64,000 nucleotides of DNA from Hymenobacter yonginensis (GTDB taxonomy: Bacteria > Bacteroidota > Bacteroidia > Cytophagales > Hymenobacteraceae). The notes under the pieces were generated by a model that was given only the letters and a program-made list of their open reading frames with translations, was not told the DNA's origin and did no database searches. Both the position numbers and the translations under genes were made by a program. The stretch lies in contig NZ_CP115396.1 of the NCBI RefSeq assembly GCF_027625995.1, positions 3,658,001 through 3,722,000 on the forward strand. The letters are read 5' to 3'. Of this stretch, positions 6,910 through 37,549 are shown one piece after another (position 1 is the first letter of the stretch; every line of letters starts with the position of its first letter).

Positions 6910-7058
6910 CTTTTTTAAGCTGTTGGCTTTTAGCTGCTGGCTGATAGCTCTCCGGGCTCAGCAAAAAACCTTAAAAGCAATTGGCTGTCAGCTGGCGAGG
7001 CATCTACACCTTTCACCAGCTAACAGCCAACAGCTAGTAGCTAACAGCTCAAAAAAAC
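6910..7058. repeat. Inverted-end repeat cassette, AGCTGTTGGCT family
   Basis: Left end 6918-6949 and right end 7018-7049 are inverted copies of a 32-base word-like sequence built from AGCTGTTGGCT/AGCTGTTAGCT, with 27 of 32 positions matching. Both ends are flanked on the outside by a homopolymer (TTTTTT on the left, AAAAAAA on the right), so the symmetry extends to about 40 bases. A third partial copy lies inside at about 6981-6994. The right end lies 9 bases beyond the rimO stop codon. Confidence 0.8.
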
Positions 7059-8372
7059 CTACACCAGCTTACCGTACAGGTCGAAGTCGGAAGCTTCCGT
7101 GATTTCCACCTGGGCGAAGTCGCCGAGGCGCACGTAGGTGTCTTTGGTGGCGGGCACCAGCACTTCGTTGTCCACTTCGGGCGAGTCGTACTGGGTGCGG
7201 CCCACGAAGTAGCCGCTTTCCTTGCGGTCGAAGAGCACCTTGTGGGTCTGGCCCACGCGCTCCTCGTTCAGCTCCATCGAAATGCCCTGCTGCAGCTCCA
7301 TGATCTGGTCGGCGCGGTCCTGCTTCACCTCGGCCGGCACATCATCGGGCAGCGTGAAGGAGTGCGTGTTGTCCTCGTGCGAGTAGGTGAAGATGCCTAG
7401 GCGGTCGAAGCGGGTTTCCTCCACGAAGTGGTAGAGGTCCTCAAAATCCTGCTGGGTTTCGCCGGGGTGGCCGGCAATGAGCGTGGTGCGCAGGGCAATG
7501 CCCGGCACCCGCTGGCGGATGGTGTCCACCAACTCCACCGTGCGGCGCTTGCTGATGCCACGGCGCATGGTTTTCAGCATGTTATCCGAAATATGCTGCA
7601 GGGGCATATCCAGGTATTTGCAGATGTTGTCCCGCTCGTTCATCACGTCCAGGGCATCCATCGGGAACTGCGAGGGGTAGGCGTACTGCAGCCGAATCCA
7701 GTCGATACCGTTCACATCCGACAGGTTGCGGAGCAGGTCGGCCAGCTTCCGCTCGCCGTAGTGCTGCAGGCCGTAGTATGTCAGGTCCTGAGCAATCAGA
7801 ATCAACTCCTTGGTACCCATGGAGGCGAGGCGGTTGGCTTCCTTCACAAGGTCCTCAATGGGGCGGTCCATGTGCTTGCCGCGCATCAGCGGGATGGCGC
7901 AGAACGAGCAGGGCCGGTTGCAGCCCTCGGCAATCTTGAAGTAAGCGTAGTGCTTGGGCGTGGTCAGCAGCCGCTCGCCCACCAGCTCGTGCATGTAGTC
8001 GGCCTCCAGCGTTTTCATCAGCTGGGGAAGCTCCAAAGTCCCGAAGAAGGCATCCACCTGCGGGATTTCCACCTCCAGGTCGTCCTTGTAGCGCTGGGAG
8101 AGGCAGCCCGTCACGTAGAGCTTTTCCAGGCGGCCGGCTTCCTTCTCGTCGGCATAGCGCAGGATGGTGTCGATGCTTTCCTGCTTGGCGTTGTCAATAA
8201 AGCCGCAGGTGTTGATGATGACGATGTTGGCGTCACTCTTCTCGGCTTCGTGCGTCACCTCAAACTGGTTGGCGCGGAGCTGGCCCATGAGCACCTCCGA
8301 GTCCACGATGTTCTTGGAGCAGCCGAGGGTGATGACGTTGACTTTATTGGCCTGCTGGCTTCTTACTTTCAT
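7059..8372 (-). CDS. rimO: Ribosomal protein S12 methylthiotransferase RimO
   Basis: A 437-residue radical-SAM methylthiotransferase that adds a methylthio group to an Asp of ribosomal protein S12. The N-terminal UPF0004 domain has its three cluster cysteines (C18 in TLGCSKN, C56 in NTCGF, C90 in VTGCLSQ). The radical-SAM motif CNRPCSFC (C151, C155, C158) follows, and a TRAM-like C-terminus starts at about residue 375. The GCSKN form and the length separate RimO from MiaB. Start ATG 8372 gives the usual N-terminus. A TACCTTTG box lies about 85 bases upstream. ftsY is the next gene upstream on the same strand but has its own region in between. Confidence 0.96.
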   Translation of the reverse strand: MKVRSQQANKVNVITLGCSKNIVDSEVLMGQLRANQFEVTHEAEKSDANIVIINTCGFIDNAKQESIDTILRYADEKEAGRLEKLYVTGCLSQRYKDDLEVEIPQVDAFFGTLELPQLMKTLEADYMHELVGERLLTTPKHYAYFKIAEGCNRPCSFCAIPLMRGKHMDRPIEDLVKEANRLASMGTKELILIAQDLTYYGLQHYGERKLADLLRNLSDVNGIDWIRLQYAYPSQFPMDALDVMNERDNICKYLDMPLQHISDNMLKTMRRGISKRRTVELVDTIRQRVPGIALRTTLIAGHPGETQQDFEDLYHFVEETRFDRLGIFTYSHEDNTHSFTLPDDVPAEVKQDRADQIMELQQGISMELNEERVGQTHKVLFDRKESGYFVGRTQYDSPEVDNEVLVPATKDTYVRLGDFAQVEITEASDFDLYGKLV

Positions 8373-8456
8373 GCTGGATTGGGTAGGCGGGTGGCCGGGC
8401 AATTTCTTATCAGTGAGAAACTTGCCTGCCTAAAGCCCGCGACGAAAATCGGACCG

Positions 8457-8464
8457 CAAAGGTA
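8457..8464 (-). promoter_or_regulatory. Putative rimO promoter -7 box
   Basis: On the minus strand this reads TACCTTTG, a perfect match to the Bacteroidota -7 consensus TAnnTTTG, about 85 bases upstream of the rimO start. No good -33 TTG is visible at 17-23 bases. Confidence 0.5.
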
Positions 8465-8532
8465 CGCAGGCGGCAACGCCTTTTCCTACTGAGGAAGTTT
8501 CTTTGTGCGCCGGGACCGTGGGTATAGAAACA

Positions 8533-8625
8533 GTCATTCCGAGCGGAGCGAGGAATCTCGCGTGCTGACGTTGAGTCACTTCTGCAACGTCAGCACGCGA
8601 GATTCCTCGCTCCGCTCGGAATGAC
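8533..8625. repeat. Perfect 40-bp hairpin, GTCATTCC family
   Basis: Arms 8533-8572 and 8586-8625 are exact reverse complements over 40 bases with a 13-base loop. The outer ends are GTCATTCC and GGAATGAC. It lies between the ftsY stop and the rimO start and contains no reading frame. A shared outer GTCAT is also found in the hairpins at 47225 and 61719. As RNA this would be an extremely stable stem. Confidence 0.9.
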
Positions 8626-8642
8626 GACCCGGATGATAGGGC

Positions 8643-9620: not shown

Positions 9621-9627
9621 GCGGAGA

Positions 9628-9737
9628 GTAGCGCGAAGCTCCAGCTTCGCGCATCGTTGCTGACGATGGACGATGACGCTGGCCCTGCCCGCACGACGGG
9701 CCGACCAGCGGCACGCGAAGCTGGAGCTTCGCGCTAC
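9628..9737. repeat. Nested palindromic repeat upstream of ftsY
   Basis: Arms 9628-9651 and 9714-9737 are perfect 24-base inverted repeats. Each arm is itself a palindrome (CGCGAAGCT-CC-AGCTTCGCG), so the element can fold either as two small hairpins or one long one. It lies only 7 bases upstream of the ftsY ATG, inside the probable 5' leader. Confidence 0.85.
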
Positions 9738-9742
9738 AACGC

Positions 9743-9769
9743 AAAAAAGTCCCACGCTGGCGGGACTTC
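9743..9769 (-). terminator. Rho-independent terminator after DUF4295 gene
   Basis: On the minus strand: stem AAGTCCC/GGGACTT followed by TTTT, 36 bases beyond the stop codon of the DUF4295 gene. It suggests that rpmG-DUF4295 forms one transcript and ftsY another. Confidence 0.7.
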
Positions 9770-9804
9770 TTCACTTCAAATCAGGGAGCCACAAAGGCGC
9801 TGGT

Positions 9805-9966
9805 TTACTTAACGCCGGTGGCGAGGTAATCCTGCACTTTGTCAACGGGCACCATTTCCTCGCGGAAGGTATAGGCACCGGTTTTCTCCGATTTCACGGC
9901 GCGAATGACTTTAGCCCAGTCCTTGCCGCCTGGAGTTTTCAGGGTTGCTACTACTTTCTTAGCCAT
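9805..9966 (-). CDS. DUF4295 small protein downstream of rpmG
   Basis: A 53-residue basic protein beginning MAKKVVATLKTPGGKDWAKV and ending LATGVK. This is the DUF4295 family, which in Bacteroidota is found next to ribosomal protein L33 and is thought to be ribosome-associated; its role is not established. It starts 7 bases after the rpmG stop, so the two are co-transcribed, and it is followed by a terminator. Small size and high Lys content fit a ribosomal accessory protein. Confidence 0.9.
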   Translation of the reverse strand: MAKKVVATLKTPGGKDWAKVIRAVKSEKTGAYTFREEMVPVDKVQDYLATGVK

Positions 9967-9973
9967 TGCTCAA

Positions 9974-10156: not shown

Positions 10157-10185
10157 CTCGACGGGGGTTTTGGGATTAAGGACTG

Positions 10186-10215
10186 CAAAGGTACGAGGGT
10201 TTTCGGAATAGGCAA
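10186..10215 (-). promoter_or_regulatory. rpmG promoter (TTG-N19-TACCTTTG)
   Basis: Minus strand: -33 TTG at 10215-10213, 19-base spacer, -7 box TACCTTTG at 10193-10186. Both elements match the Bacteroidota housekeeping consensus. It is about 30 bases upstream of the rpmG ATG and one of the best promoters in the window. Confidence 0.75.
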
Positions 10216-10327
10216 GCTGTTAATTGTTTAATTGTTAAATGGTTGAATGGCTGCGTATTCCGGCCTTTAACGACGCCGGAATACGTCCCGCTGGTCAACA
10301 ATTTGACAATCAAACCATTGAACCTTA
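10216..10327. repeat. Inverted-end repeat cassette, AATTGTTTAATTG family
   Basis: Left end (about 10218-10250, words such as AATTGTTTAATTGTTAAATG) and right end (10293-10327) are inverted copies: one core of 26 bases aligns with 21 matches. Between them is a hairpin with 11-bp arms (10254-10264 and 10275-10285). The right end directly abuts the stop codon of the aminopeptidase gene (TAA followed by GGTTCAATGG). Confidence 0.75.
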
Positions 10328-12435: not shown

Positions 12436-12986
<551 letters not shown>

Positions 12987-25653: not shown

Positions 25654-26148
25654 ATGATTGACACGCAGGCCTATCTTTCCACGCCGCTCGGCTGCCTGCG
25701 CCTGCAGGGCTCTGATGCCGGCCTGGCCGCCGTAGAATTTCTGGAGGCAAACGCCGCGCCGGCCCCTACGCCCCCGGCCGCCGTGGCCACACCGCTGCGC
25801 GAAGCCTACCGCCAGCTCCAGGCCTACTTCGGCCGCGAGCTGCGTGACTTCCAACTCACCTACGACGTGCAGCAAGGCACCGACTTCCAGCGGCGGGTGT
25901 GGGCGGCCCTGCCGGCCGTGGGCTACGGCCGCACGGCCTCCTACCTGGATCTGGCCCGGCAGCTCGGCAACCCCGGCGCCGTGCGGGCCGTGGGGGCGGC
26001 CAATGGCCAGAACCCTTTGGGGCTGGTGTGGCCCTGCCACCGCATCATCGGGGCGGGCGGGCAGCTCACGGGCTACGCCGGCGGCCTCTGGCGCAAGAAG
26101 TGGCTGTTGGAGTTCGAGCAGCCCACCGTGCAAACGGCGCTGTTTTAG
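25654..26148 (+). CDS. ogt: Methylated-DNA--protein-cysteine methyltransferase
   Basis: A 164-residue suicide repair protein that takes the alkyl group from O6-alkylguanine onto its own cysteine. The acceptor is C128 in NPLGLVWPCHRIIG; the helix-turn-helix with its arginine finger is in the ARQLGNPGAVRAVGAAN region (101-117). The Ada-type N-terminal domain is absent, so this is the Ogt form. The stop codon TAG is the first part of a TAGGGCTTAGG repeat shared with the convergent esterase gene. Confidence 0.93.
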   Translation: MIDTQAYLSTPLGCLRLQGSDAGLAAVEFLEANAAPAPTPPAAVATPLREAYRQLQAYFGRELRDFQLTYDVQQGTDFQRRVWAALPAVGYGRTASYLDLARQLGNPGAVRAVGAANGQNPLGLVWPCHRIIGAGGQLTGYAGGLWRKKWLLEFEQPTVQTALF

Positions 26149-26270
26149 GGCTTAGGATGTATGAAAGAGGCCCCGCCGGGTTACGGCGGGGCCTCTTTTC
26201 TTTCGGTTTATTTGAGCATAATCACCAAACCCTATTACCTAAGCCCTGTTCCCTAAGCCCTAAGCCCCTA
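26146..26270. repeat. Inverted-end cassette, GGGCTTAG family
   Basis: Left end 26146-26157 (TAGGGCTTAGGA) and right end 26231-26270 (on the minus strand GGGGCTTAGGGCTTAGGG, then AACAGGGCTTAGG) are inverted and enclose a terminator hairpin. The stop codons of both convergent genes (TAG at 26146-26148 and TAG at 26260-26262) lie inside the repeat ends. Confidence 0.82.
26164..26203. terminator. Terminator between ogt and the esterase gene
   Basis: 15-bp stem (26164-26178 with 26184-26198), 5-base loop, then TTCTTT on the plus strand. It can serve both convergent genes. Confidence 0.8.
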
Positions 26271-27141: not shown

Positions 27142-27247
27142 AAAAGCAGAGAAAAAGCAGGGCCGGACCGGCCGCGCTTTGCACCTACGCAGCCAGGCCC
27201 TGCCCGGATGCCACCCCGCTGCACACCAGCGCCCGGCAAGCCGGCGT

Positions 27248-27255
27248 TATATTTG
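27248..27255 (+). promoter_or_regulatory. Promoter -7 box of the TPR gene
   Basis: TATATTTG, a perfect TAnnTTTG, 56 bases upstream of ATG 27312 in otherwise GC-rich DNA. Confidence 0.55.
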
Positions 27256-27311
27256 CCGGAAGCCCCTGGCTGCCAGCCGGCGGCTTCGTTCTCCGTTCTT
27301 CTGTTCTCTCC

Positions 27312-28031
27312 ATGAAATACCCTTTCTACGCAGCCCTGGGGCTGCTTACGCTACTGGCCGCTCCTGCCCACGCCCAGCGCAAAGTCAAAGTTAAAGGCGA
27401 CGCCGCCGTGGCACTGAGTGCGGCCAATCGCCTGCAGCCGCTGTTCGGCGGCGCCACCCCGGCCCAGGCCGAGGCCCTGCTGGGCGCCGGCTACGTGGAG
27501 AAAGTGGCCGGCAGCTTTGCTTCCCGCGAAGAAGCCAGCCGCTTCCTGTCGGGCAAGGGCTACGAGTATCTCTCGGAAGGCCTCACCGACACGGCCGCGT
27601 TCCGGTTCAACCTCGCCTGGCTGCTCGACGCCAAAAACCCCGACGTGTACCGCGGCCTGGGCATCGTGGCCAGCCGCCAGCCCACCCCCGACCAAGCTAT
27701 TGCCCTGCTCACGCAGGGCTTGGCTTTGGCGCCCACCAACGCCCTTATGCTCAGCGACCTGGGCTCCAGCCACCTAATTCGTTACGAGCAAACCAAGAAG
27801 AAGAAAGACCTCACAACCGCCACCGACCTGCTGCAGCGCGCCCTCACCGCCAGCCCCGACAACGCCATTGCCTGGCAGCAAATGGCCCGCGTGCACTACC
27901 TGCAGGAAGACTACGCCAAAGCCTGGGAGGCCGTCCACAAAGGCCAGGCCCTGAGCATGACCAGCATCGACTTCGACTTCCTGAGTGAGCTGATGACCAA
28001 AATGCCCGACCCGCAGGGGAAGTTTAAGTAA
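27312..28031 (+). CDS. Exported tetratricopeptide-repeat protein
   Basis: A 239-residue protein with a signal peptide (1-21, ending AHAQ). The mature part has several TPR units from about residue 85 onward (AFRFNLAWLLDAKNPDVYRG, then NALMLSDLGSSHL and NAIAWQQMARVHYLQEDY). It is presumably a periplasmic scaffold; no enzyme domain is seen. The stop TAA is followed after 3 bases by a GTGATGAGG repeat. The next gene (outer-membrane barrel) follows after 260 bases of repeat-containing DNA. Confidence 0.85.
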   Translation: MKYPFYAALGLLTLLAAPAHAQRKVKVKGDAAVALSAANRLQPLFGGATPAQAEALLGAGYVEKVAGSFASREEASRFLSGKGYEYLSEGLTDTAAFRFNLAWLLDAKNPDVYRGLGIVASRQPTPDQAIALLTQGLALAPTNALMLSDLGSSHLIRYEQTKKKKDLTTATDLLQRALTASPDNAIAWQQMARVHYLQEDYAKAWEAVHKGQALSMTSIDFDFLSELMTKMPDPQGKFK

Positions 28032-28032
28032 A

Positions 28033-28290
28033 ATGTGATGAGGTGATGAGGTGAAACGGGGCAGGAGACAAGTGACAGGTGACAGGCTATACGCCACAGG
28101 TGAAGGGGGTAATATGCGTGGCAGGGAGGGAAAGTGACGCGCGCAGAAACCTATTTTCAGACCAAAGCCGTACTTGCTTGCGTTGTAGGCTTGCCGCTGC
28201 CCCAACCGCGCCGGCAAGCCTCTCCCCTACCCCGTCACGTATCACCTGCTACGTGTCACCTCATCACCCCATCACCTCATTACCCCCACT
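28033..28290. repeat. Inverted-end cassette, GTGATGAGGTGACAGG family (copy 2)
   Basis: Left end 28035-28085 (GTGATGAGGTGATGAGGTGA, later AGTGACAGGTGACAGG). Right end 28236-28286 reads on the minus strand GTAATGAGGTGATGGGGTGA then TGAGGTGACACG. The ends are inverted. The cassette starts 3 bases after the TPR stop and finishes within a few bases of the proposed GTG start of the barrel gene, so it fills the intergenic space almost exactly. Confidence 0.78.
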
Positions 28291-28292
28291 GC

Positions 28293-29039
28293 GTGAAGCG
28301 TCTTGTGCTCCTTTCTTCTTTAACGGCCAGCGTGCTGCTGGCCCACACCGCCACCGCGCAGGATGGGCCGGAGCGTCGCCGACGCTACTATAGCAGCCAA
28401 GCACGGGCCTATTACCGGGGTCCGGTTCGCTTTACAGTGGGCGGTGGCGCGGCCTTTTACAACGGCGACCTGGCTGGCAACCTCAGCAATAACCTGCCGG
28501 GCCCCAGCGCCAGCCTGGGTGTGCTCTACCTGCTGCGCCCGCGGCTGGTGGTAGGCGGCGAGGCCACGTATTTTCAGATTGGGGCCAAAGACCAGCTGCC
28601 GGAGCGCGGCCTCGCTTTCCAGGGCCGCAACGTGACGGGCGTAACATTTCTGCGATATGAGCTGCTGCGCGACGAAAGCCAGTTTGCCACGCCCAAACGC
28701 CCCCCGTCCCTGATCAAGCCCTACGTGAAAGCTGGCGCCGGCTTCCTGCTCTACAGCCCCAAAGCCTACCGCGGCACTCTGCGCCCCGACGACCGCACGA
28801 ACTACCTGGAGCCCGAACGCAACGACTACCCCGCCCTGGGCCTGGTCGCGCCGGTCGGGTTCGGGGTAGTGTTCCGGCTCACGCCGCAACTCAATGCCAC
28901 CGCCGAAGCTTCCTACTACTTCACCACCACCGACCAGCTCGACGACATCAGCCCCGCCAGCGGCCGCTCCAGCTCCAGCCTCAACGACGGTTACGGCCTG
29001 GCCGAAATCAAGCTGGAATACGCGCCCTGGGGGCGGTAG
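28293..29039 (+). CDS. Outer-membrane beta-barrel protein
   Basis: A 248-residue protein. The GTG at 28293 is the best start because it gives a signal peptide (VKRLVLLSSLTASVLLAHTA, cut near TAQ). Upstream in-frame ATGs would place repeat DNA into the protein. The mature part alternates in short beta-strands (FTVGGGAAFYNGDLAG, LRPRLVVGGEATYFQI, LNATAEASYYFTT) ending in an aromatic-rich LEYAPWGR, which fits a small 8-strand porin-like barrel of the DUF6089 or OmpW-like kind. Function unknown. Confidence 0.75.
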   Translation: MKRLVLLSSLTASVLLAHTATAQDGPERRRRYYSSQARAYYRGPVRFTVGGGAAFYNGDLAGNLSNNLPGPSASLGVLYLLRPRLVVGGEATYFQIGAKDQLPERGLAFQGRNVTGVTFLRYELLRDESQFATPKRPPSLIKPYVKAGAGFLLYSPKAYRGTLRPDDRTNYLEPERNDYPALGLVAPVGFGVVFRLTPQLNATAEASYYFTTTDQLDDISPASGRSSSSLNDGYGLAEIKLEYAPWGR

Positions 29040-29125
29040 AGCAGCTTATTATTTCAACCGGCACCTGACTAATGCCATCGGCTACGAGCCGGCTACACCC
29101 CAAGGCGTTGTTCATAAACCACAAA

Positions 29126-29153
29126 AAAAGGCCCGTCTTGCGACGGGCCTTTT
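29126..29153. terminator. Bidirectional terminator
   Basis: 12-bp stem (29126-29137 with 29142-29153), 4-base loop, A-run before and T-run after. It lies between convergent genes. Confidence 0.85.
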
Positions 29154-29192
29154 TCATTTTACTGGCAGCGCAACGCACTGGCCGGGGTTCGA

Positions 29193-31673
29193 CTATTGCT
29201 TGATGAAGCGCTGGTGGAACACTTTCTGGCCGTCGGTGGCGGTGAGGGTGTATATGCCCTTGGCCAGTGCCGATACGTTCAGTTGGTCGCCTTCCACCTG
29301 CACGCCGGTTACTTTGGCGCCGCGCAGGTCAGTCAGAGTTACGGATACCAGCGGAGCGTTGTCGGGCATGCTGATGCGGACTACATCGGTAGCAGGGTTC
29401 GGGTACAGCTCCAGGCCGCGGGCTGTGGCGCCCTGCGTGAGGCCCATGCTGCTGCCGCCGCCGGTGGTTACGCCGGCAATGGCCGCGCCGCCCGTGATGG
29501 TCACGGTGTAGTCTTCGGTTTCGCCGTAGCTGTAGCTGTTGCAGCTGGTCGTGGCCGAGTTGTCGCTCATGATGACGCGCAGACGGGTAGCGCCGTTTTT
29601 AGCCGTAGCCGGAACCGTGAAAGTACCCGTGAGCGTGCCGGTGCTGGCCGAAGAGCCCGATACTACCAGTTCGCCGGCGTCCGTGAACAGGCCGTTCTGG
29701 TTGTAGTCGATATAGATCTTCCAGTTTTCGGTGTACGCCGTGGAAGCAAAGCCAGCCGAGAAGCTGATGGTCTGCGACGAGCCAGCGGCAATCGAGGTGC
29801 TGGTAGCAGTACCGTTGTAGTAGCCGGCGTCAGCAGCCGAAGTGCGGGCGATGGTGCCCAGCTTCACGTAGTCGATCCACTCGTAGGCTACGCTGGTGCC
29901 TTTGCTGGCGCAGTAGGTAACCGTGGTTGGAGGAGGCGTAGTGCCACCACCGGCGGCAGCGCCTACGCCCACAGCGTACCAGGCGTTGGTAACGGCCGTT
30001 ACCTGAGCCGAACCGGCACCGTACAGGTCGGTGGCAGCGGAAATGGCGCCGGCGCGGGCGTTAGCGTAGGTCGACGAAGCCGTCAGGTACACACTTTCGG
30101 TGCGGTAGGCAATTTTGGCGGCGGCATCGATGCCCACACCCGTTACCGAGTAAGCGCTGCCGATGTCGTTGGTGCCCGAGCCACCCTGGCTCAGCAGGTA
30201 GAACCAGAAGTTGAGCACACCCGAGTTGGTGTGCACTCCACCATAGTCGTTGGCCTGAGTAGGGCTGGTGGTGGTGGCGCGCCAGTTGGTGCCTTTGTAG
30301 GTGTCAGGTTGGCCGTACTGGTTGGGGTTGCTCATGGAGCGCAGAGCGCCGCCGGCTTTCATGATTTCCTCGCCGATGAGGAAGGTACTCTTGCCGGTCA
30401 GGCCGAAGGTCGAAGCTGCGCGGGCCTCTACGCAGGCACCCCAGATATCGGAGAAGCCTTCGTTCATGGCGCCCGACTCGTTCTGGTAGGTCAGGTTAGC
30501 GGTTTTCTCGCAGATGGCGTGGCCGATTTCGTGGGCGCACACGTCCAGCGACGTGAGCGGCTTGAAGGTGCTGGCCCCGTCGCCGTAGGTCATCACCGAG
30601 CCATTCCAATAGGCGTTTTCGTAGCCCGCGCCGCCTGGCACGTCATCGAAGTGCACGTAGCTCTTGATTTTAGCACCGGCGTTATCGTAGGAGTTGCGGT
30701 TGTGCACCAGCTTCCAGTAATCGTAGGTGGCCTGAGCGCCGAAGTGGGCGTCGCCAGCGGCATTGTCGAAGTTGGCGTTGTTGTATTCGGCAGCCGTCCA
30801 GTTGTTGTCGGCGTCGATGAAGTCAACGGCCGCGGTGTAGCTGTTGCCTTTCTTGCAGTTGTAGGTTTCGATGCCGAGGCCACGGGTGGCTTCGCGCAGG
30901 TTGTAGCCGCCGGTGGCGGTGCTGTTGGCAATGGAGCGGGTGCCGCTGTAGGCAGTAGCAAACGTAGCCGTAGCCGCCGCGTGCTTGATGATTTTGTCCT
31001 GGGCTACTACGTCGCCGGTGTGGGCATTCACATACACGTACGCGCGGCTAACTGGAGCCTGAGCGTAGATGTTGAATTTCCAGGCCAGTACGGGCTTACC
31101 GGCCAGCAGCGGATTGCTGGTGCGCTCGGTGCGCACCACCACCAGTTCGCCCTGAGGCAGGTACGTGGCGTTGGGGTTGTTTTCCTGCTGCTTCAGGCCG
31201 GCTTCCTCGCGGGCATCCTGCCACATGTATTTGCTGGCTCCCACAAACGAGAGGGCGCGCTGCAGCGCGTCGGCCGCCGTGAGGGAAGGCGTGGCGTTCA
31301 GGCCGCGGATCTTCTCAAACTGGCCGCTGATGCTGGCCACTTGGCCCTGGCGGGCGTGCACCGAGTAGGTGGCGTGCTCTACCTTGATGCCTTTGTAGTA
31401 CTGCTGGAATTTCTCGTGCACGAAGCCCAACTGATCGGCTTCCGATTTGGCGGGCAGCAGCTGGTCGTCGGCGGTCAGCTGGAGCTGCTCGCGCAGCAGG
31501 GTGCCGGCTTCCTGCAGCTTGTAGGCGTTGCCATCGGCGCGGAACTGCACCAGGTAGGGCGTGCCGTCATCGTTGAGGGTTTTAGCCTGCACCCGGGAAA
31601 AGTCCTGAGCCAGTGCCGATGTGGTAAGGCCACCAAGCAGCAAGAGTGTTGCCGTAGAGTACTTGTTGAGCAT
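29193..31673 (-). CDS. Secreted M4-family metallopeptidase with T9SS sorting domain
   Basis: An 826-residue thermolysin-like protease. Order: signal peptide (1-22); FTP and propeptide (about 25-235); M4 catalytic domain (about 240-560) with HEIGH at 381-385, zinc Glu E405 in GAMNEGFSD and His H481 in GVHTNSG; a linker (GGGTTPPPTTV); a GEVED-type beta domain (about 585-735, with WIDYVKLG, IYIDYNQNG, YGETEDYTV); and a T9SS type A sorting domain from LELYPNPATD (about 753) to the end. All zinc and catalytic residues are present, so it should be active extracellularly. The region upstream is an AT-rich divergent promoter. Confidence 0.95.
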   Translation of the reverse strand: MLNKYSTATLLLLGGLTTSALAQDFSRVQAKTLNDDGTPYLVQFRADGNAYKLQEAGTLLREQLQLTADDQLLPAKSEADQLGFVHEKFQQYYKGIKVEHATYSVHARQGQVASISGQFEKIRGLNATPSLTAADALQRALSFVGASKYMWQDAREEAGLKQQENNPNATYLPQGELVVVRTERTSNPLLAGKPVLAWKFNIYAQAPVSRAYVYVNAHTGDVVAQDKIIKHAAATATFATAYSGTRSIANSTATGGYNLREATRGLGIETYNCKKGNSYTAAVDFIDADNNWTAAEYNNANFDNAAGDAHFGAQATYDYWKLVHNRNSYDNAGAKIKSYVHFDDVPGGAGYENAYWNGSVMTYGDGASTFKPLTSLDVCAHEIGHAICEKTANLTYQNESGAMNEGFSDIWGACVEARAASTFGLTGKSTFLIGEEIMKAGGALRSMSNPNQYGQPDTYKGTNWRATTTSPTQANDYGGVHTNSGVLNFWFYLLSQGGSGTNDIGSAYSVTGVGIDAAAKIAYRTESVYLTASSTYANARAGAISAATDLYGAGSAQVTAVTNAWYAVGVGAAAGGGTTPPPTTVTYCASKGTSVAYEWIDYVKLGTIARTSAADAGYYNGTATSTSIAAGSSQTISFSAGFASTAYTENWKIYIDYNQNGLFTDAGELVVSGSSASTGTLTGTFTVPATAKNGATRLRVIMSDNSATTSCNSYSYGETEDYTVTITGGAAIAGVTTGGGSSMGLTQGATARGLELYPNPATDVVRISMPDNAPLVSVTLTDLRGAKVTGVQVEGDQLNVSALAKGIYTLTATDGQKVFHQRFIKQ

Positions 31674-31744
31674 ACAATGTGGTTGTGAAGAGGTGAGAAA
31701 GCGCGAACTGCCTTATTTCGATAAAGCAGGCTGCCAATTTACAG

Positions 31745-31837
31745 TATTTTCAAATTATCAATCATTCTGTTGATAATTTATTTTCAAACCACACCATTCG
31801 TTACAACGCTTATAAATGAACATGTATTCATTTATAA
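31745..31837. promoter_or_regulatory. AT-rich divergent control region with two dyads
   Basis: Within about 140 AT-rich bases between two divergent genes there are two perfect dyads. One has 10-bp arms (31752-31761 with 31770-31779, AAATTATCAA/TTGATAATTT). The other has 11-bp arms (31810-31820 with 31827-31837, TTATAAATGAA/TTCATTTATAA). A direct repeat TATTTTCAAA occurs at 31745 and 31779, 34 bases apart. These look like operators for dimeric regulators; no regulator gene is adjacent. Confidence 0.5.
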
Positions 31838-31946
31838 CAATTTAATTTCGTTTTAATACAACTATCCTGCTATTTACCCTCCTCCCGGCTGCCCGTCTCT
31901 GCGTAGACATTGCCTGATTCTGTCCAACTTTTTTTCTGACTACCCC

Positions 31947-32741
31947 ATGCATTCCCCCGCTTTTTCCGCTACATATTCCTCCCGCTGGCGCCTCGATGGC
32001 CAGCTGGCCATCGTCACGGGCGCCTCCAAAGGCATTGGCGCCGCCGTGGCGGCCGAGCTGCTGAACCTGGGCGCCACCGTGCTGGCCGTAGCCCGCCAGG
32101 CGCCCGACCTGGAAACCCAGGTGGCCGACTGGCGCGCCCAGAACCTGGCCGCCTACGCCATAGCCGCCGATGTGAGCACTGCCGACGGCCGGCAGCAGGT
32201 GCTGGAGGCCGCGGGCCGGCTTGGGCCTGCCCTGCACATTCTGGTGAACAACGTGGGCACCAACATCCGCAAGCCCACCATCGAATACAGCCCCACCGAG
32301 TACCAGCACCTGCTGGCCACCAACCTGGAGTCGGTGTTTGGGCTGTGCCAAGGCGCGTATCCGCTGCTGCAGGCGGCGGGCGGCGCCAGCATCGTGAATG
32401 TGTCGTCGGTGGCGGGGCTCACGCACGTACGCACCGGCTCCATCTACGGCATGACCAAAGCCGCCATGAACCAGCTGGGCCGCAACCTGGCCGCCGAGTG
32501 GGCCCCAGCCGGCATCCGGGTGAATACGGTGGCGCCGTGGTACATCCGCACCCCGCTGGCCGAAACCGTGCTGCGCAACCCCGAGTACCTGGAGCAGGTG
32601 CTGAGCCGCACGCCGGCCCGCCGCGTGGGCGAGCCGGAAGAAGTGGCCGCCGCCGTGGCGTTTCTGTGTCTGCCCGCCGCCAGCTACATCACCGGCCAGA
32701 CCCTGAGCGTGGACGGTGGCTTCAGCGTGAATGGTTTCTGA
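31947..32741 (+). CDS. SDR-family oxidoreductase
   Basis: A 264-residue classical short-chain dehydrogenase. Cofactor motif TGASKGIG at 24-31, NNVG at 101-104, active-site Ser 153/154 (NVSSVAG), Tyr 167 and Lys 171 (YGMTK). The first 18 residues before the fold and the WYIRTPLAE segment resemble plant-type tropinone reductase-like SDRs. An Arg (R50) in the loop after strand 2 suggests NADPH. The substrate is unknown. The stop TGA runs straight into a CACGGATT repeat. Confidence 0.93.
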
Positions 32742-32764
32742 ATCACGGATTTTAGCGAATTAGA

Positions 32765-32836
32765 CGGATTGGTCGGATTTCGTGGACGATTCTGTTCTGC
32801 CGGATTGGGCGGATTTTGTGGACGATTCTGTTCTGC
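32765..32836. repeat. 36-bp tandem duplication
   Basis: Two head-to-tail 36-base units, 32765-32800 and 32801-32836, differ at two positions (units 9 and 17). Both contain GTGGACGATTCTGTTCTGC. It forms the left arm of the CACGGATT cassette. Confidence 0.9.
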
Positions 32837-32865
32837 TTGGTTCTGCCTTGATTGCCTATTCAGCC

Positions 32866-32905
32866 AAACAGAAAGGGCTTGCCGTGTGGCAAGCCCTTTC
32901 TGTTT
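32866..32905. terminator. Bidirectional terminator
   Basis: Perfect 18-bp stem (32866-32883 with 32888-32905), 4-base loop GTGT, T-run/A-run at the ends, between convergent genes. Confidence 0.85.
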
Positions 32906-32940
32906 AAAACGAAATCTTCTACAAAATCCGGCTGTTCCGG

Positions 32941-33819
32941 CTAATCCGCTGACATCCGTGCTAAGGCCTGGCTGTAGCGGGTGAGGCTGTGCTCGTCGGA
33001 GGCCAGGTAGAGGAAGGGCTCGATAAGCTCCAGCTCCATGAGCAGCAGCTCGCCGTTGGCGTCTACGCCGTCCACGCGGGCGTAGAGGCAGTTTTTGGCG
33101 AAGTCACGCACGATCTGGTCGGCGGTGGCGCGCAGGTGGGTGGGCGCCTCTTGGGGCTCGATGCGGCCGCCGAGGTAGTGCTGCACCCGAAAGTCGCCGG
33201 CTTTGGGGGTTTTCAGCACGCAGTGGCTGAACTCGCCGCCCAGGTAGATGAGCGACCATTCGCCCTCGGTCTGAATTTCGGGCTGGAAGGGCTGGGCCAG
33301 AAAGTCCTCGTGGCGCAGCAGCTCGGTGAGCTCCGGCGCGCGGCGCAGGGCTTCCGGCAGCGTGAGGTCGAAGGTATTTTTGGCGCCGCCGCTCACGGCC
33401 GGCTTCACCACCAGCCGCTCGGTGCCGAGGGCCGCAAACACGCTTTCAGCATCGAAAACGGTGTCTTTCGTGAGCCAGTGCGTGGGTACGATGCGCACGC
33501 CGGCCTGCTGCATATCGAGCAGGTACTTCTTGTCGGCGTTCCAGCGCACGGTGGCCACGGGGTTGAGCAGGCGCACGCCCAGCGCGTCCAGCCGGTCCAG
33601 CCAGGCGTAAAACTCCTGCACCCGGTCGAAATAGTCCCACGGCGACTTGAGCACCACGGCGTCGTAGCTCAGCCAGTCCACTGCGGAGTTGCTCCAGATG
33701 CGCGGCTCTACGTGGTGGCCCTGCGCCCGCAGGTGGCGCGTGAGCAGGTTGTCTTCATCATCGACGTTGGGAGCCGCGTATTGCGCCAGAGTTTCGCAGG
33801 TGACGAGGGCGATATTCAT
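32941..33819 (-). CDS. ATP-grasp domain protein (RimK/glutathione synthetase-like)
   Basis: A 292-residue protein with the lay-out of an ATP-grasp ligase. An N-terminal alpha/beta domain (about 1-95, MNIALVTCETLAQY, VVLKSPWDYFDR) precedes the ATP-binding lysine segments (KKYLLDMQQAG, then RLVVKPAVSGGAKNTF at about 160-175). The metal-binding end LLLMELELIEP (about 258-268, E-x-E-x-x-E) follows. It resembles prokaryotic glutathione synthetase and cycloserine-type amide ligases. The substrate cannot be inferred. ATG 33819 sits only 1 base from a 15-bp tandem repeat that occupies the ribosome-binding region. The last residues (Ser-Ala-Asp) and the stop are in a dispersed repeat. Confidence 0.82.
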   Translation of the reverse strand: MNIALVTCETLAQYAAPNVDDEDNLLTRHLRAQGHHVEPRIWSNSAVDWLSYDAVVLKSPWDYFDRVQEFYAWLDRLDALGVRLLNPVATVRWNADKKYLLDMQQAGVRIVPTHWLTKDTVFDAESVFAALGTERLVVKPAVSGGAKNTFDLTLPEALRRAPELTELLRHEDFLAQPFQPEIQTEGEWSLIYLGGEFSHCVLKTPKAGDFRVQHYLGGRIEPQEAPTHLRATADQIVRDFAKNCLYARVDGVDANGELLLMELELIEPFLYLASDEHSLTRYSQALARMSAD

Positions 33820-33820
33820 T

Positions 33821-33903
33821 GTGATGGGGTGAATCGTGATGGGGTGAATCGTGATGGGGTGAATCGTGATGGGGTGAATCGTGATGGGGTGACAGGTGAT
33901 AGG
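33821..33903. repeat. 15-bp tandem repeat at a start codon
   Basis: Five units of GTGATGGGGTGAATC (33821-33895; the last unit varies to GTGATGGGGTGACAG) followed by GTGATAGGG. It lies immediately upstream (minus strand) of the ATP-grasp ATG. It forms the left end of a cassette of the GTGATGAGG family (copy 3) whose right end is 34023-34075. Confidence 0.92.
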
Positions 33904-33984
33904 GAGAAGTTGGCAAGAAAGGGCGTCGCGCAAGGAAGAGCTTCTGCGTGGAGGCGTCGATGGGGCAACGGGGCGCAGGCGTCA

Positions 33985-34075
33985 GCGCGCGAGATGCTTC
34001 GCTCTGCATGACGTTCTTTTTCACCTGTTACCTGTCACGATTCACCTCATCACCCCATCACCTCATCACCCCTCA
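33985..34075. repeat. GTCAT-family arm plus right end of the GTGATGAGG cassette
   Basis: 33985-34014 is a single arm (GCGAGATGCTTCGCTCTGCA then TGAC) related to one arm of the hairpin at 47225. 34023-34075 is an inverted copy of the GTGATGAGG family (CACCTGTTACCTGTCACG, then CACCTCATCACCCCATCACC). It ends 4 bases before the stop codon of the M20 gene. Confidence 0.75.
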
Positions 34076-34079
34076 CAAC

Positions 34080-35378
34080 TCACTTTTTCATGGTTAGATA
34101 GTCGGCGGCAAGGGCGGCGAGGGTGCGGACGCCGAGGGTGAGGCCGCTTTCGTCGATGAAAAAGCCGGGTGTATGGTGCGGGGCGGTGGTAGCGGCGTCC
34201 TTGCCTTTGGGCATGCCGCCCACAAACAGGAAGAAGCCGGGCACTTTCTCCTGGTAGTAGGCGAAGTCCTCGGCACCGGTGACGGCCTTCTGCAGCACCA
34301 CGTGCTCGGGGCCGGCCACGCGGCGCAGGGTGGGCAGCATCTGCTCGGTGAGGCGCACTTCGTTGAAGGTCACGGGCGCGTAGTTCACGATGTCAACCTC
34401 GGCGGTGGCGCCGGCGCTTTCGGCAATGTTGGTGGCCGTGCGGCGCACAGCGGCCCAGATCTGCTGCTGCATTTCCTTGTTGAGGGTGCGAATGGTGCCA
34501 GTCAGCTCCACCTGCTCCGGGATGATGTTGTTGCGCACCCCGCCGTGCACCATGCCTACGGTCAGCACAGCCGCGTCCTGCGTCAGCTCGGTCTGGCGGC
34601 TGATGATGGTCTGCAAACCCACTACAATCTGCGCGGCCGTCACCACGGGGTCCACGGCCAGCCACGGATACGCCCCGTGCGCCGACTTGCCTTTCACCTT
34701 GATGGTAAATACATCCGACGAGGCCATGGTTCCCTCGGGGCGGTACTTGAGGGTGCCCACTTCGGTCTGGGCGTTGATGTGCACGCCGAAGATGGCGTCG
34801 ACCTTAGGGTTGTCGAGCACGCCTTCCTGCACCATCAGCTTGGCGCCGCCCGTCACGCTGGGCAGGGAGCCTTCCTCGGCGGGCTGGAAGATGAACTTCA
34901 CGGTGCCGCTGAGGTCTTTCTTCATCTCACTGAGCACGTTGGCGGCGCCCAGCAGCATGGCCACGTGGGTGTCGTGGCCGCAGGCGTGCATCACGCCCAC
35001 TTCCTGGCCGTTGTACTGGGTGCGGGCTTTGGAGGCGAAGGGCAGCGTGGGGCTTTCCGTCACGGGCAGGCCGTCCATGTCGGCGCGCAAAGCTACCACG
35101 GGGCCGGGCTTGCCGCCGCGCAGGATGCCTACCACGCCGGTGCGGGCCACGCCGGTCTGCACTTCTAGGCCCAGCCGCTTCAGCTCCGCCGCAATGATGC
35201 CGGCCGTGCGGGTTTCCTGGTTGCCCAGCTCGGGGTGTTCGTGCAGGTCGCGCCGCCAGGCAATCACCTGCTTTTCCTGCTGGGCGGCCAGCTTGGCAAT
35301 GCGGGCATCGAGGGCGGTGGTTTGGGCCGACGCGGCCAGGGGCAGCGTGAGGGCAAGTACGGAAAGCAGACGCTTCAT
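34080..35378 (-). CDS. Exported M20 amidohydrolase
   Basis: A 432-residue M20D-type aminoacylase/amidohydrolase with a signal peptide (1-19, ending ASAQ). Metal residues are visible: C133 and H135 in HACGHDTHVAML, general base E168/E169 in FQPAEEGS, and a distal His near 404 (PHHTPGF). The dimerisation domain (about 205-320, KGKSAHGAYP, GGVRNNIIP) is present. Relatives cleave N-acyl amino acids or indole-acetyl-amino acid conjugates; export suggests use of peptide or conjugate nutrients. A TACCTTTTG box (one base longer than the consensus) lies about 22 bases upstream. Confidence 0.95.
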   Translation of the reverse strand: MKRLLSVLALTLPLAASAQTTALDARIAKLAAQQEKQVIAWRRDLHEHPELGNQETRTAGIIAAELKRLGLEVQTGVARTGVVGILRGGKPGPVVALRADMDGLPVTESPTLPFASKARTQYNGQEVGVMHACGHDTHVAMLLGAANVLSEMKKDLSGTVKFIFQPAEEGSLPSVTGGAKLMVQEGVLDNPKVDAIFGVHINAQTEVGTLKYRPEGTMASSDVFTIKVKGKSAHGAYPWLAVDPVVTAAQIVVGLQTIISRQTELTQDAAVLTVGMVHGGVRNNIIPEQVELTGTIRTLNKEMQQQIWAAVRRTATNIAESAGATAEVDIVNYAPVTFNEVRLTEQMLPTLRRVAGPEHVVLQKAVTGAEDFAYYQEKVPGFFLFVGGMPKGKDAATTAPHHTPGFFIDESGLTLGVRTLAALAADYLTMKK

Positions 35379-35518
35379 AAACTACAGGCTGAAATGGGCC
35401 GCAAAAGGTACAACACGCGCGCCGGAGTGCCCCGGCATAGCGCTTGGTTTGTGGGCGTACCTGCCGCAATAAACTCCCGAGCGTACAGCAGGCTTGGCAG
35501 TACACGCCGGTCAGGCTG

Positions 35519-35526
35519 TACTTTTG
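35519..35526 (+). promoter_or_regulatory. -7 box unusually close to a start codon
   Basis: TACTTTTG matches TAnnTTTG and is only 4 bases from ATG 35531. If it is used, transcription would begin at or next to the A of the ATG and the mRNA would be leaderless. Confidence 0.45.
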
Positions 35527-35530
35527 CCGC

Positions 35531-36181
35531 ATGCCTGCTCCTACCGCCGATTCTGCTGCTGCCTCCCCTCCCCTGCGCTGGCCCGAAGCCTGGCGCACGC
35601 CGGGCTTCCGGGCGCGGCTGCTGCTGGTGCTTGTGCTGCTGCTGGCACTGCTGGCAGTGCTGCCGCGCTTCTTCGCCTACATTCAGGCTCGCCCCGGCGT
35701 GGTGCTGCCCGACCCGCTGCTGGCCGCCCTGCCCGCCCACGACGTATCGGGGCTGGTGTTCGGGACCATCTACCTGAGCGTGGTGACGGGCTTGTGGGTG
35801 CTGCTGCCGCGGCCCCGTCTGCTGCTACGGGCGCTGTGGGCGTATCTGCTGCTGCATGTGTGCCGCTGCCTGCTGCTGTGGCTGCTGCCGCTGGAGCCGC
35901 CCGTGGGTTTGGTGCTGCTGCAGGACCCGCTCGTGGATCAGCTGGTATACGCCGCGCCGGCGCCCATCACCAAAGACCTGTTTTTCTCGGGCCACACGGC
36001 CACCGTGGTGCTACTGGCGCTGGCCGTGGGCCGAGGCCGGCTGCGCACTGTGTTGCTGGCGGCGGCGGCCGTAGTAGGCGCGCTGGTGCTGGTGCAGCAT
36101 GTTCACTACACCTACGACGTGTTGGCCGCGCCGCTGTTTGCCTGGGGCTGCTACCGGATGGCTGGGTACCTCACCCCCTAA
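35531..36181 (+). CDS. PAP2_C/sphingomyelin-synthase-like membrane protein
   Basis: A 216-residue membrane protein with about five spans. The motif pair FFSGHTAT (about 152-159) and HYTYDVLAAP (about 193-202) is the lipid phosphatase/sphingomyelin synthase (PAP2_C) signature with both catalytic His and the Asp. It may transfer or remove a head group on phospholipids or ceramide-type lipids; Bacteroidota of this group make sphingolipids. The last residues (Leu-Thr-Pro) and TAA stop lie within a CACCCCCTAACCCC repeat. The -7 box directly before the ATG points to a leaderless mRNA. Confidence 0.8.
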   Translation: MPAPTADSAAASPPLRWPEAWRTPGFRARLLLVLVLLLALLAVLPRFFAYIQARPGVVLPDPLLAALPAHDVSGLVFGTIYLSVVTGLWVLLPRPRLLLRALWAYLLLHVCRCLLLWLLPLEPPVGLVLLQDPLVDQLVYAAPAPITKDLFFSGHTATVVLLALAVGRGRLRTVLLAAAAVVGALVLVQHVHYTYDVLAAPLFAWGCYRMAGYLTP

Positions 36182-36281
36182 CCCCCTCTCCGAAAGAGAG
36201 GGGGAATTAGCTCTGGAGTTACAGATTTAGAAAGTTAGGACTAGAGCCCCTCTCTTTTGGAGAGGGGTTGGGGTGAGGTGC
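36169..36281. repeat. Inverted-end cassette, CACCCCCTAACCCCCTCTCC family
   Basis: Left end 36169-36204 and right end 36245-36281 are inverted imperfect copies. Each also folds on itself (CCCCCTCTC-CGAA-GAGAGGGGG on the left, CCCCTCTC-TTTT-GGAGAGGGG on the right). The left end contains the TAA stop of the PAP2_C gene. The right end begins 1 base after the TAA of the convergent SDR gene. Confidence 0.85.
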
Positions 36282-36282
36282 C

Positions 36283-37068
36283 TTACTTCAGGTGCTTTTC
36301 GTAGATGCCGGCCGCAATCTTCTCGGTCAGCGACTTGGGCACGAGGCCGGTGAGCTTCGAGGAAATCTTGTTCAGGGCGCCCGGAATCAGCTCGGCCTCA
36401 CCGGAGAGCATGGCCTCAATGCCGGCCTGGGCCACCTGCGCGGGCGTCATGGATACCTTGTTGGCGGTTTCCTGCAGGCCGGCGCTCATGCCGGCGCGGT
36501 CGGCGAAGTCGGTGGTGGTGGCGCCGGGGCTCAGGCAGGTGACCGACACGCTGGTGTCGCGCAGCTCGTAGCGCAGGCCGCGGGAGAAGCTCAGCAGAAA
36601 CGCCTTGCTGGCGGCGTAGAGCGTGAGCGTGGGCACGGCTTGGTAGGCGGCGGTACTGGCTACGTTCAGAATGTAGGCCCGGGGCTGCCGGCGCAGCGTC
36701 GGCAGCAGGCGGTGCGTGAGGGCCACCGGCACGTGCATGTTCAGCTGCAGCATGTTCTGTTGCTCTTCCAGGGCCAGGTCCTCAAACCGCCCCCACAACC
36801 CGTAGCCGGCATTGTTGACCAGCACAGCCAGCTCCTGCGTCTGGCTGCCGGCCCACTCTGCCACAGTTTCCACGGCGTGCGGCGCGGCCAGGTCCTGGGC
36901 CAGCACGGCGGCCTGCACCTTGAACTGCTGCCGCAGTTCGGCGGCCACTTCTTCCAGCTGCGCCGCCGAGCGGGCCACCAGCAACAGGTTGTAGCCGCGG
37001 CGAGCCAGCTCGGCGGCAAAAGCACGGCCGATGCCGCGGGAAGCGCCAGTAATGAGAGCAGTAGGCAT
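36283..37068 (-). CDS. SDR-family oxidoreductase (DltE-like)
   Basis: A 261-residue short-chain dehydrogenase. TGASRGIG at 7-14, NNAGYG at about 85-90, ASTAAYQ and Y-A-A-S-K at the active site (about residues 136-155). An Arg after strand 2 (ARSAAQLEE) suggests NADPH. The C-terminus (GLVPKSLTEKIAAGIYEKHL) is typical of the SDR_c group near YqjQ/DltE. Substrate unknown. Upstream of its start (37071 on) lies the GGATTAGTGGGG repeat that bounds the four-helix-bundle gene. Confidence 0.93.
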   Translation of the reverse strand: MPTALITGASRGIGRAFAAELARRGYNLLLVARSAAQLEEVAAELRQQFKVQAAVLAQDLAAPHAVETVAEWAGSQTQELAVLVNNAGYGLWGRFEDLALEEQQNMLQLNMHVPVALTHRLLPTLRRQPRAYILNVASTAAYQAVPTLTLYAASKAFLLSFSRGLRYELRDTSVSVTCLSPGATTTDFADRAGMSAGLQETANKVSMTPAQVAQAGIEAMLSGEAELIPGALNKISSKLTGLVPKSLTEKIAAGIYEKHLK

Positions 37069-37070
37069 AT

Positions 37071-37549
37071 GGTGGGGTGATGGATTAGTGGGGTGGTGGA
37101 TTAGTGGGGTGGTGGGTTATTCTTCCCGGATGGTGCGGCGGGAAGAGGCCAGCACGGCAGTGATTTTGTTGAAATCCTCGTAAAGCGCCGCCAGCTTTTC
37201 AGGGCGAATGATGCCGGATTCCATTAGCAACTCCATCCAGTACAGCGTTTCATCTGCTTCCTCTACGCAGATGCAGAGTTTCGCAAAGTACTCGGCACGG
37301 GAGCGGCCACGGCAGGCAGCCCGGTGATTGGCTCCAACGGATGTAGCGGAGCGTAGTAACTGCTTGCCCAATATCCGCGCCTCGTCGGTTTGAGGCATTG
37401 CCTGATACAAGCGAATCACCCGTAGCGCAGCCTGCTTGGTACGCTGACGCGTTTCTTCTGCAAAAGCCGCTGATCCTTCCATCATGCTGATAAATGAGGT
37501 TGGTTCACGCAAAATAGCGCATCCCACCAATCCACCACTCCAGCAATCC
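37071..37549. mobile_element. Candidate cassette: four-helix-bundle gene within inverted ends
   Basis: Left end: two exact 16-base units TGGATTAGTGGGGTGG (37081-37112) with partial copies at 37071 and 37113. Right end 37523-37549 (CCCACCAATCCACCACTCCA then GCAATCC). Segment 37082-37108 and the reverse complement of 37523-37549 match at 23 of 27 positions. The enclosed 415 bases contain only the four-helix-bundle gene. No transposase is present, so calling it mobile is inference from structure. Confidence 0.5.
37117..37485 (-). CDS. Four-helix-bundle protein (23S rRNA-IVS/Avd-like)
   Basis: A 122-residue helical protein of the S23/IVS family: RTKQAALRVIRLYQAMPQTD, ILGKQLLRSATSVGANHRAA (about 40-60) and AKLCICVEEADETLYWMELL are its hallmarks. 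Relatives are encoded inside 23S rRNA intervening sequences, as accessory variability determinants of retroelements, or as stand-alone genes. The function of the stand-alone form is unknown. Start ATG 37485 is one of two adjacent Met codons. The gene is enclosed by inverted repeats; its TAA is immediately followed by the left end (CCCACCACCCCACTAATCC). Confidence 0.9.
   Translation of the reverse strand: MMEGSAAFAEETRQRTKQAALRVIRLYQAMPQTDEARILGKQLLRSATSVGANHRAACRGRSRAEYFAKLCICVEEADETLYWMELLMESGIIRPEKLAALYEDFNKITAVLASSRRTIREE

Follow-up and report, generated by a model that had tools for sequence, protein, structure and literature searches.

What kind of element fills the spaces between the genes of this locus is the question addressed here. 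The stretch of Hymenobacter yonginensis DNA that was analysed (64,000 nucleotides, contig NZ_CP115396.1, positions 3,658,001 to 3,722,000 of the forward strand; hereafter the window) has a G+C content of 63%, and the 17 named matches to one of its proteins at >=58% identity all come from Hymenobacter. Nine of its intergenic spaces had been described as containing an end built from short words together with an inverted copy of that end. The original prediction had attributed the nine spaces to one process working on different sequences, which it did not recognise. On reading, inverted ends were present at all nine, and one architecture with many sequences was indeed found, but the nine sites are not all of one kind; nor is the process wholly unrecognised any longer, because the arms resemble those of S23/IVP (23S rRNA-intervening-sequence protein) gene units. 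In our best reading, most cassettes of the window are related to S23 units but lack the gene, and they resemble the intervening sequences of 23S rRNA. The full form of this reading, in which most cassettes are units or remnants of one kind, made of inverted word arms with or without an S23/IVP gene and maintained by the mechanism proposed below, is given a probability of about 0.5.

The ninth site was found to carry the gene. The whole unit (37071..37549, minus strand) consisted of a word arm, an S23/IVP gene and an inverted word arm, and was located between two minus-strand protein genes (36283-37068 and 37554-38459). Its inverted ends gave p=0 of 200 in the loose test and p 0.016 in the strict test, and the flank score was 42 (p=0 of 200). 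The gene (37117..37488, minus strand, 123 codons) matched the PF05635 profile with 65.9 bits against a cut-off of 33.8 (E 4.3e-18); its start codon is not settled, and the open reading frame may start further upstream. The left arm (GGTGGGGTGATGGATTAGTGGGGTGG..., 37071..37116) contained a pairing core at 37082-37111 and the right arm (37520..37549) was its inverted copy, as supported by alignment and by the RNA fold; in this predicted fold the arms appear paired at the ends. The site had been described as an intergenic cassette with inverted ends, which it is, but the PF05635 gene that it holds had been missed, and the site is as long as 479 bp because this gene is enclosed. The protein is a member of the S23/IVP family by its profile score above the cut-off and by its S23 fold. 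Among the PDB sequences it matched 2rld (E 2.2e-18), and its model was a confidently predicted four-helix bundle (pLDDT 87.9), to which Foldseek placed closest 2rld (S23 family; TM-score 0.80-0.84 by query length) and 2gsc (Xcc0516 of Xanthomonas campestris). Weaker matches (E about 0.03) included Avd of diversity-generating retroelements, also in its structure with reverse transcriptase; unrelated four-helix proteins scored like Avd. Structures of S23 proteins have been solved, and we know of no role established for them.

In the sets tested, S23/IVP genes were regularly accompanied by short-word mirror arms. PF05635 matches were found in 83 of 101 Hymenobacter genomes and in 156 of 198 Bacteroidota genomes (the Hymenobacter genomes compared are given G-numbers and the S23 loci L-numbers). 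In ten Hymenobacter genomes inverted word arms with p<=0.005 were present around all 27 S23 genes, as they were around 24 of 25 further Hymenobacter loci (51/52), whereas only 7 of 178 like-sized control genes of G001 reached this level. Across the phylum the signal was weaker than in the genus (17/30); neither these 25 additional genus loci nor the 30 phylum loci are a random sample, both sets being the best-scoring ones. When the flanks were measured from the ends of the open reading frames, 24 of the 27 genes gave p<=0.01, and when measured from the domain match all 27 gave p<=0.005. The 95% point of a mismatched-flank null, from which 314 and 60 homologous pairs had been removed, was exceeded by 49 of 52 genus loci and 16 of 30 phylum loci. 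The S23 loci are not independent, as six of them lie at one orthologous space. The S23 gene was co-directional with both neighbours at 34 of 35 evaluable genus loci (17 of the 52 were left out, their neighbours being not callable on both sides) and at 25 of the 28 phylum loci that could be evaluated (of 30), against 98 of 178 controls; therefore, the unit lies mostly in sense within a possible transcript.

The arms were also found on plasmids. All 15 plasmid copies tested (of 24 matching records; five phyla) passed with no match in 300 shuffles each, a result judged against shuffles alone, with no mismatched-flank null, and several of these loci are A+T-rich. The hosts were Gloeocapsa, Planktothrix, Nostoc (four), Pseudanabaena, Dolichospermum, Anabaena, Euhalothece, Chlorohelix (two), Bernardetia, Treponema saccharophilum, and Monoglobus. 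The plasmid S23 genes (L320-L322, L324, L325, L327, L331-L334) often adjoined defence genes, which included a DISARM helicase, DUF1156/Swt1-HEPN, a helicase with a methylase, type I restriction genes, and cas1/cas2. In the open-access literature no paper was recognised as joining S23 genes with intergenic word arms (subscription papers were mostly outside this search), and a literature search by the word sequences found no paper.

The words followed the lineage of the S23 protein. Arm similarity was correlated with protein identity among the 53 S23 proteins of Hymenobacter (Mantel rho 0.344, p 0.001; the largest of 999 permutations was 0.171), and in the phylum set rho was 0.212 (p 0.006). For one family the abundance of the gene-less hairpin went with the gene. 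The hairpin beside L263 was matched 80, 76, 92, 77, 48, and 45 times in the six genomes whose orthologous space carries an S23 gene and 0-3 times in nine other genomes; these counts are of local alignments on both strands, where one hairpin may count twice, with scored candidates limited to 40 per genome. The S23 genes of these six species (L245, L246, L251, L261, L262, and L263) occupied one orthologous space, and their words differed. A word hairpin stood directly beside the S23 gene in several of them; therefore, the gene-less hairpin may be a part that can detach from the unit. At the same space G001 contained 67-71 bp with GTGCTTAG words. The GTGACAGG-like family gave 62 overlapping pattern matches in G004, 56 in G001, 31 in G003, 9 in G008, and 2 in G014, and a close S23 gene (75-100% identity) was found in G004 and G008 only. 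The GAGTAACTGAG family had 25 matches in G003, together with an S23 gene bearing such arms, and 18 in G001, which had no S23 match. Words without a gene may be remnants of S23 units.

We compared the nine window sites with dinucleotide shuffles, using a loose inverted-repeat score (200 shuffles) and a strict score (500 shuffles), and their arms with S23 arms, using the alignment score against the maximum of 100 shuffles. Chance was rejected for the inverted ends, as all nine sites had a loose p<=0.01 (eight with p=0 of 200). With the strict score seven sites gave p=0 of 500, and the values for 37071-37549 and 12436-12769 were 0.016 and 0.21, respectively. Besides the site with the gene, four sites matched S23 arms beyond the shuffles. 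These were the gene-less word cassettes at 6910..7058 (AGCTGTTGGCT family; p=0 in both tests; S23 arm of L307, 48 against a shuffle maximum of 39), 12436..12769 (a decayed cassette of the GTGACAGG/GTGATGAGG family; loose p 0.01; S23 arm of L243, 31 against 26), 28033..28290 (GTGATGAGG/GTGACAGG family; p=0 in both tests; L256, 38 against 36), and 33821..34075 (GTGATGGGG/GTGACAGG family; p=0 in both tests; L243, 38 against 33). The site at 26146..26270 contained a predicted bidirectional terminator hairpin within inverted GGGCTTAG arms (p=0, the strict signal being that of the terminator hairpin); its arms were judged by eye to be like those of the G003 S23 gene L241 (TTAGGGCTTAGG arms), and the terminator with heptamer arms recurred at other sites of G001 and G003.

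The other three sites also gave p=0 in both tests. A gene-less word cassette around a hairpin (AATTGTTTAATTG / ATGGTTGAATGG family) was present at 10216..10327, and a predicted terminator hairpin within inverted AATCACGGATT arms was present between convergent genes at 32739..32960; these arms and a similar terminator were found at other places too. At 26146 and 32739 the arms enclosed a G+C hairpin with flanking A/T tracts, as judged from sequence only. In the G001 ortholog of 32739-32960 the inner palindrome was perfect over ~33 bp, and it was imperfect in the window and in G003 (by eye). The site at 36169..36281 is of another kind, a CCTCACCCCC...CCCCTCTCC hairpin pair; what had been taken for a word array there is a CCCCTC/GAGGGG hairpin. 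The CCTCACCCCC..CCCCTCTCC pair recurred in G001 spaces and resembles published G/C-rich triplex motifs. The nine sites were part only of what the window holds, since 19 of its 54 gaps of >=40 bp, delimited by the gene calls of a home-made codon model, reached p<0.01. The strongest inverted repeats, at 8373-8642 (score 143) and 47204-47442 (score 141), had not been listed.

The nearest genomes, G001 and G003, were colinear with most of the window, with 80-97% and 77-96% identity per aligned block, respectively. We surveyed 1.7 Mb of G001, in which the borders of spaces were set by home-made codon-model gene calls; genes of weak coding score and gaps of <40 or >1200 bp were left out. A tandem word array was found in 119 spaces, with a period of 7 in 40 and of 8 in 37 (77/119). 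An inverted partner beyond 100 shuffles was found for 64 of the 119 arrays, and the mirror pairing of word arrays is strong and common, but not universal. The claim that the two ends of a site always match was therefore right as to a common pairing and wrong as to a rule; one G017 space (that of site 33821) bore two different families at its ends. Word-like arms were present in 63 of 538 G001 spaces with an inverted repeat. The orientation of the arms was shared with the S23 units: the G-rich strand read inward in 61 of the 63 gene-less cassettes and in 51 of 52 S23 arms, against 90 of 159 other long repeats. At least one end was flush with a gene in 57 of 63 cassettes against 45.6 in simulation (maximum 55 in 2000 simulations), and both ends were flush in 20 of the 63, which was not beyond simulation (mean 18.2).

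Two further observations were made in these spaces. In the 63 cassettes of G001, 2.1 of 3 frames on average were stopped within 36 nt when the arms were read inward; shuffles gave 1.5, with a maximum of 1.6 among 100. Long palindromes of a second class, GTCAT-xxx-GAGC...-yyy-ATCTCGC, were found in G001 and G003 spaces (orthologous pairs 188693 and 460677), where xxx and yyy were complementary within the arm and co-varied in four places (TGC/GCA, TTCC/GGAA, TCCT/AGGA, and TTGC/GCAA). These palindromes were often nested in the middle of a word cassette and, in the G001 survey listing, always within word arms.

The dominance of periods 7 and 8 is also what would be seen if the arms were ordinary heptamer and octamer microsatellites, grown by polymerase slippage in neutral gaps, with fold-back template switching copying an arm across and the S23 genes as tolerated passengers. 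We consider this explanation rather unlikely. Among the 42 cassettes left after removal of 21 with nested known elements, the best match within the 1.7 Mb of G001 spaces was the own partner in 17, as slippage and local copying would have it, but another site was the better match in 25. The arms also spread without their interior, and the G001 inner palindrome at 32739 seems, by eye, to have been perfected by pieces from both arms, as template switching predicts. Against it stand the exact template-switch scan, which gave no excess (5 copies of each kind, inverted and direct, in 1805 tests), and three features that it does not predict: the presence of arms around the S23 genes of several phyla, the agreement of the words with the S23 lineage, and the recurrence of word families at many sites of one genome.

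The arms changed together, which this explanation predicts too, and the change was best seen in orthologous spaces. A G003 ortholog was available for 250 of 316 G001 spaces (66 were without one), with inverted repeats in both in 87, in one in 55, and in neither in 108. In 44 spaces with long repeats in G001 and G003, the arms were closer within species in 31, closer between species in 7, and equal in 6. In twelve such spaces inspected, with flanks 79-97% identical, the families mostly differed between the species and three were partly conserved. The space of 37071 held other cassettes without a gene in G001, G003, G008, G010, G024, and others, and at least five families were found there across the window, G001, G003/G008, G010/G024/G017/G018, and G014. 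Changes on both sides that kept the pairing numbered 191 against 29.5 expected if sites were independent, with every space viewed from both genomes and 1389 base pairs with a gap left out. In one space with a heptamer-armed terminator, orthologous as judged (like the two below) from the flanking coding sequence, both arms were GGGCTTA in G001 and GTGCTTA in G003, and the interior tail, which is peculiar to that site among the copies examined, was kept. Both arms had thus changed with the interior of the site retained; therefore, a word can be altered where it stands, and often in both arms. A second such space had GGGATTA against GTGCTTA, and in a third the two G001 arms disagreed.

Of the two modes of change that had been considered, presence or absence of a cassette with target duplications and gradual base change, neither was typical; the orthologous cases were mostly swaps, nesting, and concerted word change. 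No clean filled and empty pair of a word cassette was found among the orthologous cases inspected, and target duplications were not searched systematically. The polarised gains and losses of pairing were 31 each, a comparison that is uninformative as the pairs were chosen for pairing in some species. A change of stop codon was not enriched at swapped cassettes (5/26) relative to conserved ones (16/83) or to ends without an inverted repeat (10/53).

The position of the repeats relative to genes bears on another explanation, namely that selection keeps the cassettes as bidirectional terminators or as stabilising hairpins of transcript ends, for which any pairing sequence would suffice. In G001 a significant inverted repeat was found in 166 of 190 convergent, 324 of 731 tandem, and 24 of 209 divergent spaces. 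The same order was found in the named Hymenobacter loci (38/43, 35/100, and 1/58, respectively) and in four more groups of loci from Bacteroidota, where Pedobacter and its relatives had fewer long repeats. Divergent spaces held 12 of the 119 word arrays, of which 3 were paired. Part of this pattern reflects plain terminators. Terminator-like hairpins are present within the arms at 26146 and 32739, and at the latter space in most named species too, and the double changes preserve pairing, all of which selection for termination would explain. However, arrays overran their pairing partner, as in a long (GGGCTTA)n with a short partner in G001, single unpaired arrays were common, and the S23 link is left unexplained, so that as a general account we regard this one as improbable.

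If a RAYT or some other transposase encoded elsewhere in the genome had moved the cassettes as REPIN-like or MITE-like elements, dispersed inverted doublets would be expected, and the nested GTCATNNNGAGC palindromes do look REPIN-like and Y1_Tnp was matched in 12 of 16 genomes, but G007 (45 hairpin matches) and G024 (76) had no Y1_Tnp match and the word arms vary in length, words, and unit number without fixed ends, which makes this origin very improbable. A RAYT was rejected as a necessary agent on the same two hairpin-rich genomes (transposase families other than Y1_Tnp were not searched). A reverse transcriptase was likewise rejected, as RVT_1 was without a match in G024, G017, G018, G007, and G014, all with at least 37 hairpin matches; therefore, neither agent seems to be needed. 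Within the window, no transposase was found among the ten proteins scanned around sites 26146-38459, the rest of the window not being scanned for transposases.

We return to the reading of the cassettes as S23 units and their gene-less relatives, for which the following mechanism is proposed. Two inverted arms of short G-rich words, with periods mostly of 7 or 8, could pair into a long stem. The gene-bearing form stands mostly between co-directional genes; therefore, the S23 gene would be readable from a host transcript and the arms could fold around it, giving an RNA stem around the gene as in 23S rRNA intervening sequences. S23 units would then be intervening-sequence-like elements of the gaps within operons, and the gene-less hairpins, which are scattered over the genome and are found nested with terminators and other palindromes, would be their derivatives. 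The S23 protein may bind its own words, as RNA or as single-stranded DNA, and promote their copying into new gaps. Slippage would renew the word arrays, and arm-to-arm copying by fold-back template switching would keep the arms matched, so that the words would drift in step. Copies between divergent genes would be purged because promoters are disturbed.

Several results weigh against this reading. Mobility through the S23 protein is our inference, and no movement was observed. One arm family was found around two unrelated terminators in G001; therefore, arm copying fits better than insertion of a whole unit, and for arm copying the template-switch scan reported above gave no excess. The 99% point of the mismatched-flank null was exceeded by only 27 of 52 genus loci and 4 of 30 phylum loci. 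A cruder count of orientation in the genus, based on open reading frames, put 26 loci in the same direction and 4 in the opposite one, with 5 convergent, 16 divergent, and 1 that could not be evaluated, and 3 of the 15 plasmid copies were opposed to their neighbours. In the window, no S23 arm match beyond 100 shuffles was found at three of the nine sites, 10216 (25 against a maximum of 34), 32739 (26 against 36), and 36169 (18 against 22). G014 had 37 matches of the L263 hairpin and no S23 gene was found at that space, and the kinship of genomes was not removed from this comparison of copy number. No close S23 gene was found in G001 and G003, in which the GTGACAGG words are present, and G001 had no PF05635 match at all, yet many word cassettes.

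We tentatively extend the reading further, to a view that we hold at somewhat less than even odds: S23/IVP proteins may form a new class of mobile elements in which a word hairpin is recognised and spread, with protein and word drifting together. On this view such elements would have as their ends the heptamer repeats found in cyanobacteria, xanthomonads, and Bacteroidota, and the rRNA intervening sequences would be one special case. The protein in question would be small and without a known nuclease or polymerase domain, with a fold as in Avd, which accompanies a reverse transcriptase and RNA. Several phyla have intergenic heptamer repeats for which no agent has been described, and the S23 link provides both these repeats and the S23 proteins with a partner that can be tested. 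Should the S23 protein spread or guard its word hairpin, this type of element would have a trans-acting factor unlike those known to move DNA, which would go some way to account for the rapid turnover of intergenic gaps in these bacteria. Were the S23 gene only a passenger, mirror-word arms would still flag S23 genes and their remnants, which is useful for annotation.

The units were compared with known systems. Site 36169 resembles the G/C-rich purine/pyrimidine hairpins of intrastrand triplex motifs and PIT elements, a resemblance only (PMC4666352). Like the BrickBuilt MITE of Porphyromonas gingivalis, the cassettes have tandem repeats in an inverted-ended intergenic element of Bacteroidota, but in BrickBuilt the unit is 23 nt, small inverted ends flank the array, and no S23 gene is named in the portion available (PMC4596501). 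REPINs are likewise inverted doublets that fold into hairpins and are dispersed without an enzyme of their own (PMC3116915); they depend on RAYTs, whereas hairpin-rich genomes without a Y1_Tnp match were found here. The TAACTGA repeats of Beggiatoaceae, cyanobacteria, and Bacteroidetes are heptamer arrays by start codons, patchily spread over the same phyla, with a mechanism given as not known; unlike the present arms they are direct (with one indirect set in the main genome), and the terms 'S23' and 'intervening' do not occur in the portion available (PMC4679880).

The heptamer arrays of Xanthomonas and Nostoc are G-rich and intergenic, with fewer between divergent open reading frames and a repeat type mostly kept between species; 70 and 75 inverted pairs were reported in two Xanthomonas genomes and few in Nostoc (PMC4692102). 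They share with the present arms tandem words of a period of about 7 between genes and rarity between divergent genes, whereas one word family per genome is described and no S23 gene is linked in the available part of that report. Xcc0516, the S23-fold protein named above, is from X. campestris, the same genus as the inverted heptamer pairs. The intervening sequence of Coxiella 23S rRNA contains an S23 open reading frame, a 28-bp inverted stem, and heptamers before the start codon, and is excised by RNase III; an older proposal, cited there, was that such a reading frame served mobility, its function being unclear (PMC4990558). Site nine is like it in having an S23-family reading frame within complementary inverted ends, in sense with the host transcript, and unlike it in lying between protein genes rather than inside a 23S rRNA gene, its RNA side being a predicted fold; many word families and numerous gene-less copies also set the present units apart. 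We rate these units as intervening-sequence-like elements located outside rRNA, and there is a real possibility that they form a new class of mobile elements.

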